From Streptomyces sp. NBC_01476 (GTDB lineage: Bacteria > Actinomycetota > Actinomycetes > Streptomycetales > Streptomycetaceae): a stretch of 64,000 bases of DNA. Position numbers and translations under genes: made by a program. Below the pieces are notes generated by a model. It had not been told where the DNA came from. It ran no database searches and saw only the letters and a program-made list of their open reading frames with translations. Below, one piece after another: positions 7,995 through 11,980 of this stretch. The stretch lies in contig NZ_CP109446.1 in assembly GCF_036227265.1 (NCBI RefSeq), positions 1,618,501 to 1,682,500 of the forward strand. The letters run 5' to 3'. Each line of letters opens with the position of its first letter. Positions within the stretch are counted from its first letter, which is position 1.

Positions 7995-9578
7995 TCACCG
8001 TCGGAACGGTTGCCCGGGGGGTGCCGGATGCGGGACGGGCCGCCGCAGGGCGAGGTGCTCCCGCAGCGTCGCGCCCGGGTGGAAAGAACGGAAGAGGCCC
8101 CGGTGCTGGAGCAGCGCCACCGTGCCGTTGACAAAACGTTCCAGGTCGCGGCGTGGCTCAACCGGCCGCACGTGGAAGCCGTCCACCGCGCCGGACCGCT
8201 GCCAGTCCGCGATGAGGTCGGCCAGGTCGACCGGTCCGCCGCTGAAGAGCACGCCGCCCGTGCCGTCGGGAGCGGGGGAGCTGTCGGCGCCAGGTTCGGG
8301 ACCGAGTTCGCCGCCGCCGAGGTCGATGGCGAGTTCACCGAGCACCAGCAGCCGGTCCGGGTCGCGGCCCGCCTCCATCGCGAGCCGGCGCAGGTCGTTC
8401 CGTATCAGCAGCGCCTGGTCCGGACGGGCGGCCCGGACGAAGGCGACGTCCGCGTGCCGGGCCGCGGTGGTCCTGGCCGCGGGTTCTGTGGCGTCCACCG
8501 CGATCACCGGCCGGCCCTGCGGCGTCCGCGAACCGGCGCCGCCGGCAAGGTCACCGTCCGCGTCCCACGCGAGGGAGACCGCAGCGGCCACTTCGTCCGC
8601 GTGCCGCCACCGCGCCTCGGCCCGCTCGGCCCTGCCCCGTCCCGCCGCCGCGCCCGGCACGGCCAGCGCCCATCCGGCCCGGCCCTGGCTCACCCGGTCC
8701 AGAGCGGCGACCGCGAGGGCGAGTTCGGCCGGAGGTGCGGAGGAGGCCGCCAGCGCCGGCACCACGCCGACCCGGTCGGTGGCCGGCGCGAGCCGGGTGA
8801 GGACCGCGAGGGCGTCGTCGCCGCTGTCACCCTCTCCCCCGGCCAGCGTCACGAAATCCAGCGCCCCGCGCTCAGCAAGCCGGACCAGCTCCAGATAGGA
8901 CCCAGCGGGCTCCTCCCCACCGTCGATCGCAGCGGCCAGATGAAGCGTCCGGGTCCGCCGCAGCGGCCACGCGGCCGCCCCCGGCGCACCAGAAGCCGGC
9001 GCCCCCGCCGAAGCCGCCGGCACGTTCCGCTCAACCGCCGCACCCGGCACGGCATGAGCCGCCGACCCCGCCGAACCGTCCGGCCCACTCGCCGCAGCCA
9101 CCCCGGCAGGAGCCGCAGGCGCAGCCGGCACCGCAGAAGGCTCAGGCACCGCCGACGCAACCGGCACCACCGAGGCGTCCGGCGCAGACGACTCCGCAAC
9201 AGCCGCGGGCACCGTCGGCACGGCCAGCGCAACCGGCACCGCTGAAGCGGCTGGCACAGACGGCACCGCAAGAGCCGCAGGCACCGCAGAAGCCGCCGAT
9301 GCAACCGGCACCACCGAGGCGGTCGGCGCAGTAGGCGCAGCCGACACTCCGGAACGGGCAGGCACCGCCGAAGCAGTCAGCCCGGTCGACACCGCGGAAG
9401 CCGCAGGCACCGTCGGCACGGCCCGCCCAACCGGGACCGCCGAAGCGGCCGGCGCGAACCGCACCGCAGGAGCCGCAGGCACCGTCGGCGCAGCCGAGGC
9501 CGCGGGCATCGGCGAGGCGGGCGGCGCTGGCACCGCGGACGGCGGCGGGGTGGGGAGGGGGGAAATATCAGCACGCAT
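7995..9578 (-). CDS. LLM-class flavin monooxygenase with long Ala/Pro/Val N-terminal extension
   Basis: 527 residues from an ATG with GGAG 7 nt upstream. Residues about 7-205 are low complexity, almost entirely Ala, Pro, Val and Ser in loose repeats of AVPTVPAA/ASAVPV type. The folded part begins near 210 with TLHLAAAIDG and continues LVRLAERGALDFVTLAGG, ATDRVGVVPAL and LDRVSQGRAGWALAV. This is the bacterial-luciferase-like TIM barrel of flavin (FMNH2)-dependent monooxygenases (NtaA/SnaA/DszA type). Relatives in actinomycetes act on organosulfur, nitrilotriacetate or alkanesulfonate-like compounds. The extension is not part of the fold. Its residues could be unstructured linker; function unknown. 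A plausible promoter lies at 9678-9706. Confidence 0.78.
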   Translation of the reverse strand: MRADISPLPTPPPSAVPAPPASPMPAASAAPTVPAAPAVRFAPAASAVPVGRAVPTVPAASAVSTGLTASAVPARSGVSAAPTAPTASVVPVASAASAVPAALAVPSVPAASAVPVALAVPTVPAAVAESSAPDASVVPVASAVPEPSAVPAAPAAPAGVAAASGPDGSAGSAAHAVPGAAVERNVPAASAGAPASGAPGAAAWPLRRTRTLHLAAAIDGGEEPAGSYLELVRLAERGALDFVTLAGGEGDSGDDALAVLTRLAPATDRVGVVPALAASSAPPAELALAVAALDRVSQGRAGWALAVPGAAAGRGRAERAEARWRHADEVAAAVSLAWDADGDLAGGAGSRTPQGRPVIAVDATEPAARTTAARHADVAFVRAARPDQALLIRNDLRRLAMEAGRDPDRLLVLGELAIDLGGGELGPEPGADSSPAPDGTGGVLFSGGPVDLADLIADWQRSGAVDGFHVRPVEPRRDLERFVNGTVALLQHRGLFRSFHPGATLREHLALRRPVPHPAPPGQPFRR

Positions 9579-9677
9579 GCGAAGGCTCCGTGGACACGCG
9601 GAAGAGGCGGAGGACGCCTTCACACAGTTGCCGCGTCCCTCAACGCGGCTGGGGCCCCGGGGGCCTTGACATGAGGC

Positions 9678-9706
9678 TATGCCGACGCCGTCGGCGACTG
9701 TCAAGC
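9678..9706 (-). promoter_or_regulatory. Probable promoter of the LLM monooxygenase gene
   Basis: On the minus strand TTGACA (near 9701-9706) is followed after about 17-19 nt by CATAGCCT, which contains a TAGCCT -10 candidate. This is close to the Streptomyces vegetative consensus. It lies about 100 nt upstream of the LLM start codon. Confidence 0.5.
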
Positions 9707-9739
9707 GTGTCCGGTCCGTGGACACGCGTCTCAGCTCGG

Positions 9740-9769
9740 TTGACGGATCGCCCGCCCGGCTGCTGCACT
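9740..9769 (+). promoter_or_regulatory. Promoter giving a leaderless cysteine-type leader ORF
   Basis: TTGACG (9740-9745), an 18-nt spacer and TGCACT (9764-9769). The expected transcription start, 6-7 nt after the -10 box, falls on the A of the ATG at 9776, so the short ORF would be translated leaderlessly. Confidence 0.5.
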
Positions 9770-9775
9770 GTCCGC

Positions 9776-9853
9776 ATGCGCAGCTGTCAGCTGGTCACCC
9801 GCGATCACATCGACTTCGGTCGGGTGTGGTCGGCCGCGTGTTGTAGCCGCTGA
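9776..9853 (+). CDS. Putative cysteine-attenuator leader peptide (orphan)
   Basis: 25 codons reading MRSCQLVTRD, then HIDFGRVWSAACCSR. This matches the short leader peptides annotated widely in Streptomyces: basic start, H-[IV]-D-x-x-R-V core and a Cys-rich end. In actinobacteria comparable leaderless poly-Cys ORFs act as cysteine-responsive attenuators for downstream sulfur genes. Here two consecutive Cys codons precede the end, and a CCGGCG/CGCCGG hairpin follows 25 nt after the stop. No plus-strand gene lies downstream: the next gene is convergent, and the LLM gene is divergent. It is therefore orphaned or acts in another way. There is no ribosome-binding site, as expected for a leaderless ORF. 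Confidence 0.7.
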   Translation: MRSCQLVTRDHIDFGRVWSAACCSR

Positions 9854-9878
9854 CCACCTCCGACAGACGCCCGACGGA

Positions 9879-9894
9879 CCGGCGTCCCCGCCGG
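9879..9894 (+). terminator. Small hairpin after the leader ORF
   Basis: CCGGCG-TCCC-CGCCGG, a perfect 6-bp stem with a 4-nt loop, 25 nt after the leader stop codon. It could be the attenuator hairpin. No T-tract follows. Confidence 0.3.
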
Positions 9895-10009
9895 CCGGCG
9901 GATCGTCGTTCCGTCGCCTTCACACAGGCACCCGATCGTTCGGCAGCTCCGGCCCCTCCCTCGGGCCACCCCACCGCAGAGCGCGGCCCGGCTCACCACC
10001 GGCCGGCCA

Positions 10010-11242
10010 TCAGGCCCCGCAGTTGAGACATTCGCAGCACTCACAGCAGTCACAACAATCGCAGCAGTCGCCGTCACAGCTGCCGCACCAGGAGTCCCGG
10101 CGCTGCCCGCTCCAGGCGTCGTCGTGCTCACGGCAGCACAGTTCGCAGGTGCAGCACATGCCCGTGTAGACCAGGCACCCCATCAGCAGTCCGCGCCGCC
10201 GCGGCGGTTCCGGCGGCGGAAATCCGCCGGGGCCGCCGGGGCCGCCCGGTGCGTACGGACTGCGCCCGGGGTCCTGCGGCGCGTACGGACTCCCGCGGAA
10301 CGGGTTGCCCGGCGGCGGCAGCTGGGCCGCCCGGTGGGTGCACCCGCCGGTGCCGAAGGCCCGGTCCACCGACCGTCCCAGCTCGTGGACGAGCAGCACA
10401 TGCGCCAGCCGCCCGGCCGCCGGGTCGGCGAACTCGGTGTCGTGCAGGGCGAGCCGGATGCCGTGCCGGGCGTCGTCGCAGAGCCGCCGCGCCTCGGCCA
10501 GGCCGGTACCGGTCGCGGTGAGCGGGTTCCAGGCACCGGTGCCGGTGTCGTCGGCGAGATCCTCGACCGCGTCCAGGAGATGGGCGAGCCGGCCGAAGAG
10601 CCGGCCCGCTTCCGCCAGCGGTGCCAGGTTGCCGGGCCGCCCGGTGAGGACGGCGGTGTGCGCGAAGGCCGCCGCGGTCGCCGTTTCGGTGGGTTCGGTG
10701 ACGGTGAGCAGCGGGGTGCCGGGCCCGGCCGCCGCCTCGATCCCGCCCTGCCGGCCGACCGCGTCGAGCAGCACGGCGGTGTCGAAACCGACGGCTTCCC
10801 CGCCGCGCGCGCCGGCCCGGTCCCAGCGGCGGGCGACGGTACGGGCCGCCGCGGCGACCGGCCGCCGGCCGAACGCGCCGTCCCGGTCGTCGACATGGTC
10901 ACGTATCTTCGCCGAGGCGAGCACCAGCGAGACCGCCGCGGCGAGCCGGGCACCCTCCCCCGTGGCGACCTGTGCGGTACGCATCCCCCGCAGCGGGCAC
11001 GGGCCCGCGGTGCGCAGCCGGCCGCCGGGCGTACGCCGCCCGCCGTCGTGCGCGGTGGACACCGGAGGGGACTGAGCCTCCGTCAGGACCGATATGACCA
11101 GTCCGTCATAGTTGGTTGCGATACGGGCGAACTGTCCGTGGCCGTCCCGCAGTGCCAGGCAGAGCCCGCACAGATGGGCGAGCCAGGACGCCGCCATCCC
11201 CTCTGACATGCGGTGACGACACGGTCTGATGATGCCGAACAT
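10010..11242 (-). CDS. DUF5685 family protein with cysteine-rich C-terminal tail
   Basis: 410 residues. The N-terminus (MFGIIRPCRHR, then HLCGLCLALRDGHG and a YDGLVISVL segment) is typical of DUF5685 and has a CxxC pair. A mostly helical Ala-rich middle follows, then a Pro/Gly-rich linker of about 50 residues. The last 60 residues contain 18 cysteines, many as CC pairs spaced by Asp or Glu (DCCDCCECCEC). That composition suggests metal or cluster binding, metallothionein-like, but no defined motif is recognisable. The ATG at 11242 is preferred over the GTG two codons earlier because GGGGG lies 8-12 nt upstream. Function unknown. It neighbours the cysteine leader. Confidence 0.8.
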   Translation of the reverse strand: MFGIIRPCRHRMSEGMAASWLAHLCGLCLALRDGHGQFARIATNYDGLVISVLTEAQSPPVSTAHDGGRRTPGGRLRTAGPCPLRGMRTAQVATGEGARLAAAVSLVLASAKIRDHVDDRDGAFGRRPVAAAARTVARRWDRAGARGGEAVGFDTAVLLDAVGRQGGIEAAAGPGTPLLTVTEPTETATAAAFAHTAVLTGRPGNLAPLAEAGRLFGRLAHLLDAVEDLADDTGTGAWNPLTATGTGLAEARRLCDDARHGIRLALHDTEFADPAAGRLAHVLLVHELGRSVDRAFGTGGCTHRAAQLPPPGNPFRGSPYAPQDPGRSPYAPGGPGGPGGFPPPEPPRRRGLLMGCLVYTGMCCTCELCCREHDDAWSGQRRDSWCGSCDGDCCDCCDCCECCECLNCGA

Positions 11243-11536
11243 GCCCACGTACCCCCGTCGAGCCGGCTACTTCACAGCGGCGGTCATGTTATCGGCCTGC
11301 CAACACGGGGCAGGGTACGGCCGTACGGCCCTGCGAATCACCCGCACGTGGAGCAAGTTCCCATCGATCCGTCACCCCGCTTACCCCTGCCGCGGCTTGA
11401 CGGTGCGCCACTATCGTGTGTGCCAGTACCGTCACAAGTCGCCTGAGTGGCGGCAATCCGCATGGCAGAGAATCCACGTCATGGACGACCATAGGAACAG
11501 CGGACGGTACGACCGCGTGTGAGAGAGGAGGCGTCC

Positions 11537-11980
11537 ATGGGTTCGGTACGACGGGCGAGTGCCTGGCTGGGCCTCGTCGACGACAACGGCGGCGAGGGTT
11601 ACTACGACGAGGAGTACGCCGACTACGGCGAGGGCTCCGAGCGTGCCGACACCTGGGTGACCGACCCACGGGTGCGGGTGGCCAGCGAGTCCGCCGAGGA
11701 GCAGGGCCGCCGGATCGCCACCGTCACCCCGGACGGTTTCCGGGACGCGCGCGGCATCGGGGAGCTCTTCCGGGACGGCGTACCGGTGATCGTCAACCTC
11801 ACCGGCATGGATTCGGCCGACGCCAAGCGCGTCGTCGACTTCGCGGCCGGGCTCACCTTCGGTCTGCGCGGCTCCATCGAGCGGGTGGCCACCCGGGTCT
11901 TCCTGCTGACCCCGGCCGACTACTCGGTGATGAACGCGGACTCCCGCCGTGGCGGGGACGGCTTCTTCAACCAGTCGTGA
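11537..11980 (+). CDS. sflA: SepF-like protein (SflA-type), cell-division associated
   Basis: 147 residues. An acidic, disordered N-terminus (about 1-60) is followed by the SepF fold: [21 protein letters not shown], then [25 protein letters not shown] and the glycine-containing [14 protein letters not shown] strand. The N-terminal amphipathic helix [12 protein letters not shown] would anchor it to membrane. SepF proper lies next to ftsZ, so a copy in this der/cmk neighbourhood matches the SepF-like paralogue SflA, which influences FtsZ use in Streptomyces hyphae. The paralogue assignment rests on remembered gene order. GAGAGGAG is well placed upstream. Confidence 0.85.

Follow-up and report, generated by a model that had tools for sequence, protein, structure and literature searches.

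An orphan cysteine leader conserved beside a divergent monooxygenase gene in a streptomycete genus, and its possible action on the structured 5'UTR of that gene

The window, meaning the whole stretch of DNA that was analysed, is 64,000 nucleotides long and comes from the 8.4 Mb genome of Streptomyces sp. NBC_01476. It contains a short reading frame of the cysteine-leader type that has no client gene on its own strand and adjoins a divergent gene for an LLM-class flavin monooxygenase (Table 1). The -10 element of the predicted leader promoter ends 7 bases before the ATG, so the predicted transcription start is the A of the ATG itself and the transcript would be leaderless. The first-pass annotation of this DNA had placed a promoter and start here, on the ATG of a 25-codon ORF. 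The promoter elements and the ORF were found there, and the spacing of the -35 and -10 elements from which the leaderless start is predicted is kept in all 26 orthologous loci described below. The -35 element is TTGACG in each of these, 35–36 bases upstream of the ATG, and Shine-Dalgarno-like words (GGAG, GAGG, AGGA) are absent before the ATG in 25 of them. A scan with the sigma-70 consensus reported no promoter at the leader or elsewhere in the sequence scanned, and a scan for intrinsic terminators found no such site in 9000–11500.

Table 1. Genes and sequence features at the leader locus, in window coordinates
Feature	Position	Strand	Basis or detail
LLM-class flavin monooxygenase gene, divergent partner	7995-9578	-	TIGR03860, E 2.4e-31 (below cut-off)
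Conserved structured LLM 5'UTR (model R1)	9573-9672	-	Alignment of 26 loci; no Rfam family
UTR hairpin GUGUGAAGGC (9616-9625) with GCCUUCGCAU (9577-9586)	9577-9625	-	GCCUUCGCAU holds the AU of the LLM start codon
UTR hairpin GCCGCGUUGAGGGACGCGGC	9630-9649	-	All cells paired (100%); both sides changed in 2 pairs
Predicted LLM promoter	9674-9704	-	TTGACA 9704-9699, TAGCCT 9679-9674
Inverted repeat TGTCC-N7-GGACA, operator-like, between the divergent promoters	9708-9724	.	23/26 loci, with variants
Predicted leader promoter	9740-9769	+	TTGACG 9740-9745, TGCACT 9764-9769, 18-nt spacer
Leader ORF, 25 codons, MRSCQLVTRDHIDFGRVWSAACCSR, Cys codons 4, 22, 23	9776-9853	+	Intact in 26/26 orthologues
Hairpin within leader ORF, UUCG loop in the window genome	9802-9832	+	RNAalifold, 20/26 orthologues
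Tail block CGCCTTCACACAG, complementary to LLM 5'UTR	9915-9927	+	Leader transcript tail
Tail stretch GGCCCCTCCCTCGGGCC, C-rich, complementary to UTR GAGGGA	9951-9967	+	CTCCCTC in 22/26 tails
DUF5685 gene, convergent, judged outside the module	10010-11248	-	Presence/absence
SepF-family gene, next recognised gene on the leader strand, judged outside the module	11537-11980	+	Presence/absence

The same annotation had described a cysteine leader with no plus-strand gene to control, between a divergent LLM gene and a convergent next gene, and this arrangement was borne out. No plus-strand ORF of at least 20 aa starts between the leader and 10010; further plus-strand ORFs overlie the DUF5685 gene or sit more than 1 kb away, ahead of the SepF gene. 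The small hairpin that it had seen after the ORF is missing from the consensus structure. In an RNAalifold consensus of 20 of the 26 loci (L046, L047, L049, L050, L051 and L052 were omitted for their long or diverged tails), no hairpin forms 3' of the ORF, and the conserved hairpin lies inside it, with a UUCG loop in the majority of the 20. The folding energy of a 125-nt leader piece is ordinary relative to shuffled sequences (z −1.4).

Searched against NCBIfam, the leader ORF had a single match, to NF042936 (the Ms4527A Cys-rich leader), with an E-value of 1.1e-5 and a score of 24.9 bits, which is below the cut-off of 45. Judged by this profile match and by its intactness in all 26 orthologues, the ORF is more than a chance reading frame. 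In the window genome the profile gave 16 matches at E ≤10, none of which passed its curated cut-off, and 11 at E <0.3, the window leader among them. Eight of the 10 other leader-like ORFs have a same-strand client ORF with a Pfam match, at distances ranging from overlapping frames to ca. 270 nt: four LLM proteins, a PLP enzyme, an ABC permease, a sulfite/nitrite reductase and a DUF1684 protein. L077 and L084, which are outside these eight, have no convincing client. As far as these predicted neighbours show, the cis arrangement is the rule for Cys leaders in this genome, and LLM genes are the commonest clients.

When 201 bases from the locus were searched against 61 genomes, 38 gave matches, and 26 of these are orthologues of the stretch: the source genome itself and 25 of its 34 congeners. 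The other 12, which belong to other families or gave one short match, were excluded. A repeat search with 288 bases returned the same 26 of the 35 genomes analysed for the genus. The leader ORF has 24–25 codons in all of them. Cys22 is kept in every locus and Cys23 in 23, and a single codon is used throughout for each of His11, Ile12, Asp13, Val17, Trp18 and Cys22. Among 20 aligned peptide sequences – 19 of the 20 distinct peptides from the 26 loci, and one from another family – 12 of the 25 columns are invariant. Because the ORF is intact, the promoter spacing and several codons are fixed, and a hairpin lies within the ORF, selection appears to act on the leader, in part at the RNA level, in an orphan arrangement across the genus. 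The leader pattern gave one chance match (L154) when run on the corresponding loci of congeners that lack the leader, and plasmid records contained nothing similar.

On the other strand, the region from the predicted LLM transcript start to the ATG was aligned for all 26 loci, and the alignment has long invariant stretches. Two hairpins were modelled in it, the second from an RNAalifold stem that was lengthened by hand to GUGUGAAGGC/GCCUUCGCAU. Counted on the same alignment from which the structure was derived, 96.6% of the 468 cells in the helices pair, as against 27–59% when the helices are slid. None of 500 shuffles reached this number of paired cells, and 5 reached the covariation score. 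Four cells in two pairs are changed on both sides; the number of cells was reached by 6 of 500 shuffles and the number of pairs by 174. Ten further pair types were reached by 385 of 500. The element hardly varies, which keeps covariation modest. Several of the pairs are U-G in most sequences, and so fit a minus-strand RNA and not its complement. An Rfam search of 9400–10300 returned a chance snoRNA match alone (E 3.5, at 9887–9947). On this structural model, the LLM 5'UTR is a conserved structured RNA with its AUG held in one of the hairpins, new here and with no Rfam match.

Model R1, built from this alignment, matched 26 of the 61 relatives at E <1e-10, and these are the 26 with the leader, which the model recovers by construction. 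Beyond them nothing was better than E 0.015 in the 61 genomes, under filters whose strictness may lose weak matches. The nine genomes of the genus that lack the leader also lack the UTR; in the 61 genomes the UTR was never seen apart from the leader or outside this one genus. Scanning the genomes collected by GTDB with the UTR core gave 25 stretches, 18 of them apparently already represented in the analysed set; the two examined of the other seven, in Streptomyces avicenniae and Mycobacterium kyogaense, have no leader-like ORF by pattern and no UTR. The UTR of L052 contains an insertion. Translated on the plus strand, the UTR copy of L035 gives a leader-like ORF starting MRRLRRHAEVARV, a frame that is not kept in the window (9574–9627, plus strand). 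Going by this frame, duplication of a leader may have given rise to the UTR element.

The whole LLM protein has no Pfam match, and its C-terminal 321 aa match PF00296. It is 527 aa long in the window, and relatives with a complete frame have 296–423 aa, except for 697 in L052. The window protein begins with a low-complexity stretch of ca. 200 residues rich in Ala, Val and Pro (8960–9578, minus strand), which is missing or far shorter in the orthologues.

In 22 of the 26 loci the LLM frame begins at the start codon that ends the conserved UTR (two cut by contig ends, and L033 with GUG for AUG). The remaining four have varied contents. In L050 the UTR ATG opens a 70-codon ORF, the LLM gene comes next, and a DUF1684 gene is located between it and a protease gene. 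In L055 and L056 the start codon opens an FAD-NAD(P)-binding gene instead of the LLM gene (PF13454 in L055), and in L055 the LLM and DUF1684 genes come after it. In L040 the LLM gene is missing while leader and UTR stay, and similarity to a neighbour's region ends 216 bases upstream of the leader. At all 26 loci the leader is divergent from the conserved UTR. The first-pass annotation had raised an inversion that parted leader and operon as one of its two explanations; at none of the 26 do leader and LLM gene share a strand, and no ancestral same-strand order was found. The first-pass annotation had proposed comparing their orientation across relatives, and had counted consistent divergence, if coupled with a lack of attenuation, against its own proposal. 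The orientation turned out as that statement had it. Taken with a structured 5'UTR complementary to the leader tail (see below), consistent divergence points to a partner on the opposite strand and not to an absence of function.

Nine congeners lack the leader, and none has an orthologue of the LLM gene. In six, the best match has 37–39% identity and is another LLM protein; in three, there is none at 1e-15. Three control genomes (G000, G008, G031) gave 71, 100 and 67% identity in the same search. Eight of the nine have synteny at the locus, with the DUF5685 and SepF genes present and neither LLM gene nor leader. Mapped on a 33-row tree built from a neighbouring protein (L056, G035 and G036 lack the protein, and G029 was left out), presence of the leader is most simply explained by four changes, of which at least two are forced by well-supported branches. 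From this distribution, leader and LLM gene seem largely to share their fate, while DUF5685 and SepF do not share it. Leader, UTR and LLM gene adjoin, so a joint loss can be a single deletion, and adjacency alone could contribute to the shared fate. The DUF1684 gene was considered as a client and rejected: it stands beside the DUF5685 gene, with neither leader nor LLM gene, in three of the genomes that lack the leader.

In plus-strand reading, CCTTCACACAG with a CCCTC stretch after it occurs both in the UTR copy (9615–9657) and in the tail of the leader (9915–9967). The pattern CCTTCACACA-N(3–33)-CCCTC, itself drawn from these two copies, occurs twice in the whole genome – at the UTR and at the tail, in the same orientation – and has no occurrence in the other orientation or when reversed. 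As the LLM gene is read from the opposite strand, two blocks of the leader tail have their complements in the LLM 5'UTR, and their order is correct: CCUUCACAC and CUCCCUC in the tail and GUGUGAAGG and GAGGGA in the UTR are ordered in a way that suits an antiparallel duplex. The stretch at 9951–9967 forms a small hairpin in the cofold of the window sequences and is unpaired in the RNAalifold consensus.

The tail blocks are kept while their surroundings diverge. Of the 26 tails, taken at 150 bases, 22 carry CTTCACAC with at most one mismatch (mean in shuffles 3.7, maximum 8), 18 carry CCTTCACAC with at most one mismatch (mean 1.7, maximum 7) and 22 carry exact CTCCCTC (mean 2.5, maximum 7), with motifs that were picked after the tails had been viewed and in rows that are related. 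The tails of the 10 other leader-like ORFs of the genome carry CCTTCACAC at 2–3 mismatches only. In L052 the UTR block was not found by pattern, and there is no tail block in the first 200 bases.

Several statistics bear on pairing of UTR and tail. The best ungapped match between the two is the shared block in 22 of 26 species. In 11 species, no more than 3 of 60 shuffles reach this best match when it is taken by itself; in the other 15 it is not clearly above shuffles, and in four of these it is not the block. Agreement within a species, at 10.96 of 14, is just slightly above the 10.43 seen across species (25 species), with a permutation p of 0.0009, or 0.016 on 19 distinct pairs, neither of them tree-aware. 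In the clade of L046, L047, L049 and L051 the UTR copy has CACGC for CACAC, and the tails have CACGT, CCCGC, CACGT and CACGC, respectively; in L050, L055 and L056 the UTR block is altered and the tail has no matching change. When cofolded, the tail and UTR of the window are predicted to bind better than 100 of 100 shuffles. Across species, the best 5% takes in 9 of 25 tails (the window included), and 5 are worse than the shuffled mean. RNAduplex on whole tails and UTRs gave long duplexes that are probably driven by G+C content and are uninformative. With a modelled ribosome masking the RNA at Cys22, accessibility of the tail shifts in no consistent direction: it goes up in 12 of 25 species and down in 6, and the mean unpaired fraction is 0.62 free and 0.69 stalled. 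As a set, these sequence-based statistics are only suggestive.

The joint distribution, the shared blocks, the conserved orphan leader and the structured UTR are most economically accounted for by one two-part regulator. The favoured reading, held tentatively, is that the leader RNA is a cysteine-leader antisense regulator of the divergent mRNA, its tail pairing with the 5'UTR; the pairing, its direction and the response to cysteine are all presumed. Retention of the leader at the 4 loci without DUF5685 and at the 2 where an FAD-NAD(P)-binding gene replaces the LLM gene counts in favour of this reading. Ribosomes would translate the leaderless ORF and, at low cysteine, lose speed on its terminal Cys codons, and the slowing would alter the amount of tail that is made or exposed. 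The tail could then invade the GUGUGAAGGC/GCCUUCGCAU hairpin, free the AUG and raise LLM translation, and a sulfur-scavenging-type enzyme would be made when cysteine is short. The sign, activation over repression, is the weakest step of this presumed sequence, and folding leaves it either way. A more specific version is more doubtful: a two-piece cysteine switch in which the leader gave up its cis operon and acts from the opposite strand, with a tail that is a diverged second copy of its partner's UTR element and opens the LLM start-codon hairpin by strand exchange.

The main rival, control at the DNA level, is unlikely. Here the two divergent promoters would be controlled together, by a regulator on the inverted repeat or by supercoiling from one of the promoters; cysteine sensing by the leader would do no more than curb transcription leading away from the locus, and RNA pairing would not be the use of the shared blocks. 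The repeat looks, from its sequence, like the operator of a regulator, it lies between the promoters in most loci (Table 1), both promoters are conserved, and the shared blocks could be protein sites. Such control leaves unexplained a UTR that forms hairpins and has G-U pairs suited to the minus strand. Nor does it account for the placement of the blocks: those of the tail persist at a variable distance from the leader ATG (100–198 nt), and the UTR block keeps to 151–171 nt before that ATG. At 15 other leaders the repeat does not rise above background, and it was therefore rejected as a general operator of Cys leaders.

The first-pass annotation had suggested that a short RNA from the leader is antisense to the 3' end of the DUF5685 mRNA. 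As a rival to the favoured reading, this would mean that the leader attenuates an antisense transcript into that mRNA and so lowers a Cys-rich protein when cysteine is scarce. The gene does end on the opposite strand, 156 bases past the leader stop, and its product has 18 Cys in its last 60 residues, but its distribution makes the idea improbable, and the gene was rejected as the client. It is present at 22 of the 26 leader loci, one of the other four has a 46-aa remnant, and it persists at 74–81% identity in 8 of the 9 congeners without the leader. The Cys-rich tail of the product (gene end, 10010–10160, minus strand) is perhaps metal-binding; the DUF5685 proteins of those eight congeners align nearly up to this end.

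Slightly less probable again is that the leader peptide, of 24–25 aa, itself acts in trans in the manner of peTrpL of Sinorhizobium, as far as that system is set out in the available part of its report (PMC7298713). The invariant peptide columns would be in keeping with this, but the conserved core is common to cis-acting leaders, and several codons are fixed at the DNA level within the RNA hairpin, which favours a role for RNA or ribosome movement over one for the peptide alone. It is very improbable that the leader is a relic with no present function, left over from a leader-operon pair split by rearrangement. A cis client, the usual arrangement at the other leader-like ORFs of the genome, is not seen here, as a relic would lead one to expect; yet across the genus the ORF, its promoter spacing and the tail blocks have been kept amid diverging flanks, and the ancestral same-strand order was not found in the loci compared. 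Least probable of all, and rejected, is control of the distant SepF gene through a very long plus-strand transcript: SepF is downstream on the plus strand in 25 of the 26 loci (L056 has none in the 12 kb examined) and 482–818 nt from the leader ATG in the 3 of these without DUF5685, but at least 1.7 kb including an opposing gene separates the two in the other 22, and SepF is present in all 8 leaderless congeners with synteny.

The polycysteine leaderless sORFs of mycobacteria (Ms4527A, NF042936) regulate genes downstream in the same operon, according to the available parts of reports that cite Canestrari et al. 2020 (PMC9031893, PMC9094748, PMC13236596), and are described there as sensing cysteine through the speed of the ribosome (PMC9031893, PMC13236596). 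The leader in the window resembles this type in its predicted leaderless start, in the shortness of the ORF and the neighbouring Cys codons close to where it ends, in its NF042936 match (below the cut-off) and in the sulfur-related kinds of genes nearby. It differs in having a likely partner that is divergent and no client operon directly downstream on its own strand. As its presumed way of working is that of Cys leaders and it lacks their defining feature, the cis operon, it is better called a variant than a member of the type. The other Cys leaders of the genome, with their LLM, sulfite/nitrite reductase, ABC permease, PLP enzyme and DUF1684 clients, have the peptide core in common with it; unlike it, they lie on the same strand ca. 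270 nt or less 5' of a gene and lack the CCTTCACAC/CTCCCTC tail.

A parallel for action in trans is rnTrpL of Sinorhizobium meliloti, an attenuator RNA that begins with the leader ATG and acts on another mRNA, and that also has its own cis operon and terminator, as described in the part of that report available (PMC7298713). The proposed action in trans of an RNA starting at the leader ATG is shared with that system, so far as described there. In the window, by comparison, no cis operon or terminator was found, the proposed signal is cysteine, and the proposed target is encoded on the opposite strand ca. 200 bp away. The LLM UTR can be likened to the structured 5'UTRs and riboswitches of streptomycetes, among which the available text of one survey gives SAM-IV, Streptomyces-metH and Streptomyces-metK RNA (PMC8079986). 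These too are conserved RNA structures of actinobacteria, and some of them precede sulfur-related genes; set against that text, the LLM UTR differs in having no Rfam match and in occurring only with the leader, in one genus of 61 genomes.

The usual view of leader-peptide attenuators is that they work in cis, and it is easy to write off an orphan as a relic. In this case an orphan leader is kept genus-wide, and with it, on the opposite strand, a structured 5'UTR that has the sequence of the leader tail in common with it, and a conserved candidate regulatory RNA with no Rfam family is identified before an LLM monooxygenase gene. Should the pairing prove real, rewiring of amino-acid leaders for control in trans is possible, and the fate of other orphan leaders becomes testable. 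Titles and abstracts in the literature searched included none on an orphan or opposite-strand cysteine leader; within that literature this would, if true, be the first leader-peptide attenuator with its only client on the other strand.

Related leaders occur elsewhere in the genus. A close relative of the leader (HIDFGRVWSAACR) is found in L065 and L066 (genomes G015 and G003), and in L065 it sits 49 nt ahead of a 149-aa ORF that resembles a membrane protein. From L065, the leader subfamily may have ordinary cis clients of its own in the genus. Another leader (MCCSIGYVNAQQRLVTRDHIDFGRVWSAACCT) is present in L062 and L063 (G028:C146) as two identical copies ca. 16 kb apart, directly 5' of an LLM-like ORF; a duplication or an assembly effect are the suggested alternatives for the twin copies. 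The reannotation of S. lividans lists eight leader peptides, none of them named for cysteine in the available part of that report (PMC8079986). One of these, metL of strain TK24, stands before methionine import genes and ends in CMCRRMCAF, with three Cys codons (PMC8079986), and going by that description it might respond to cysteine.
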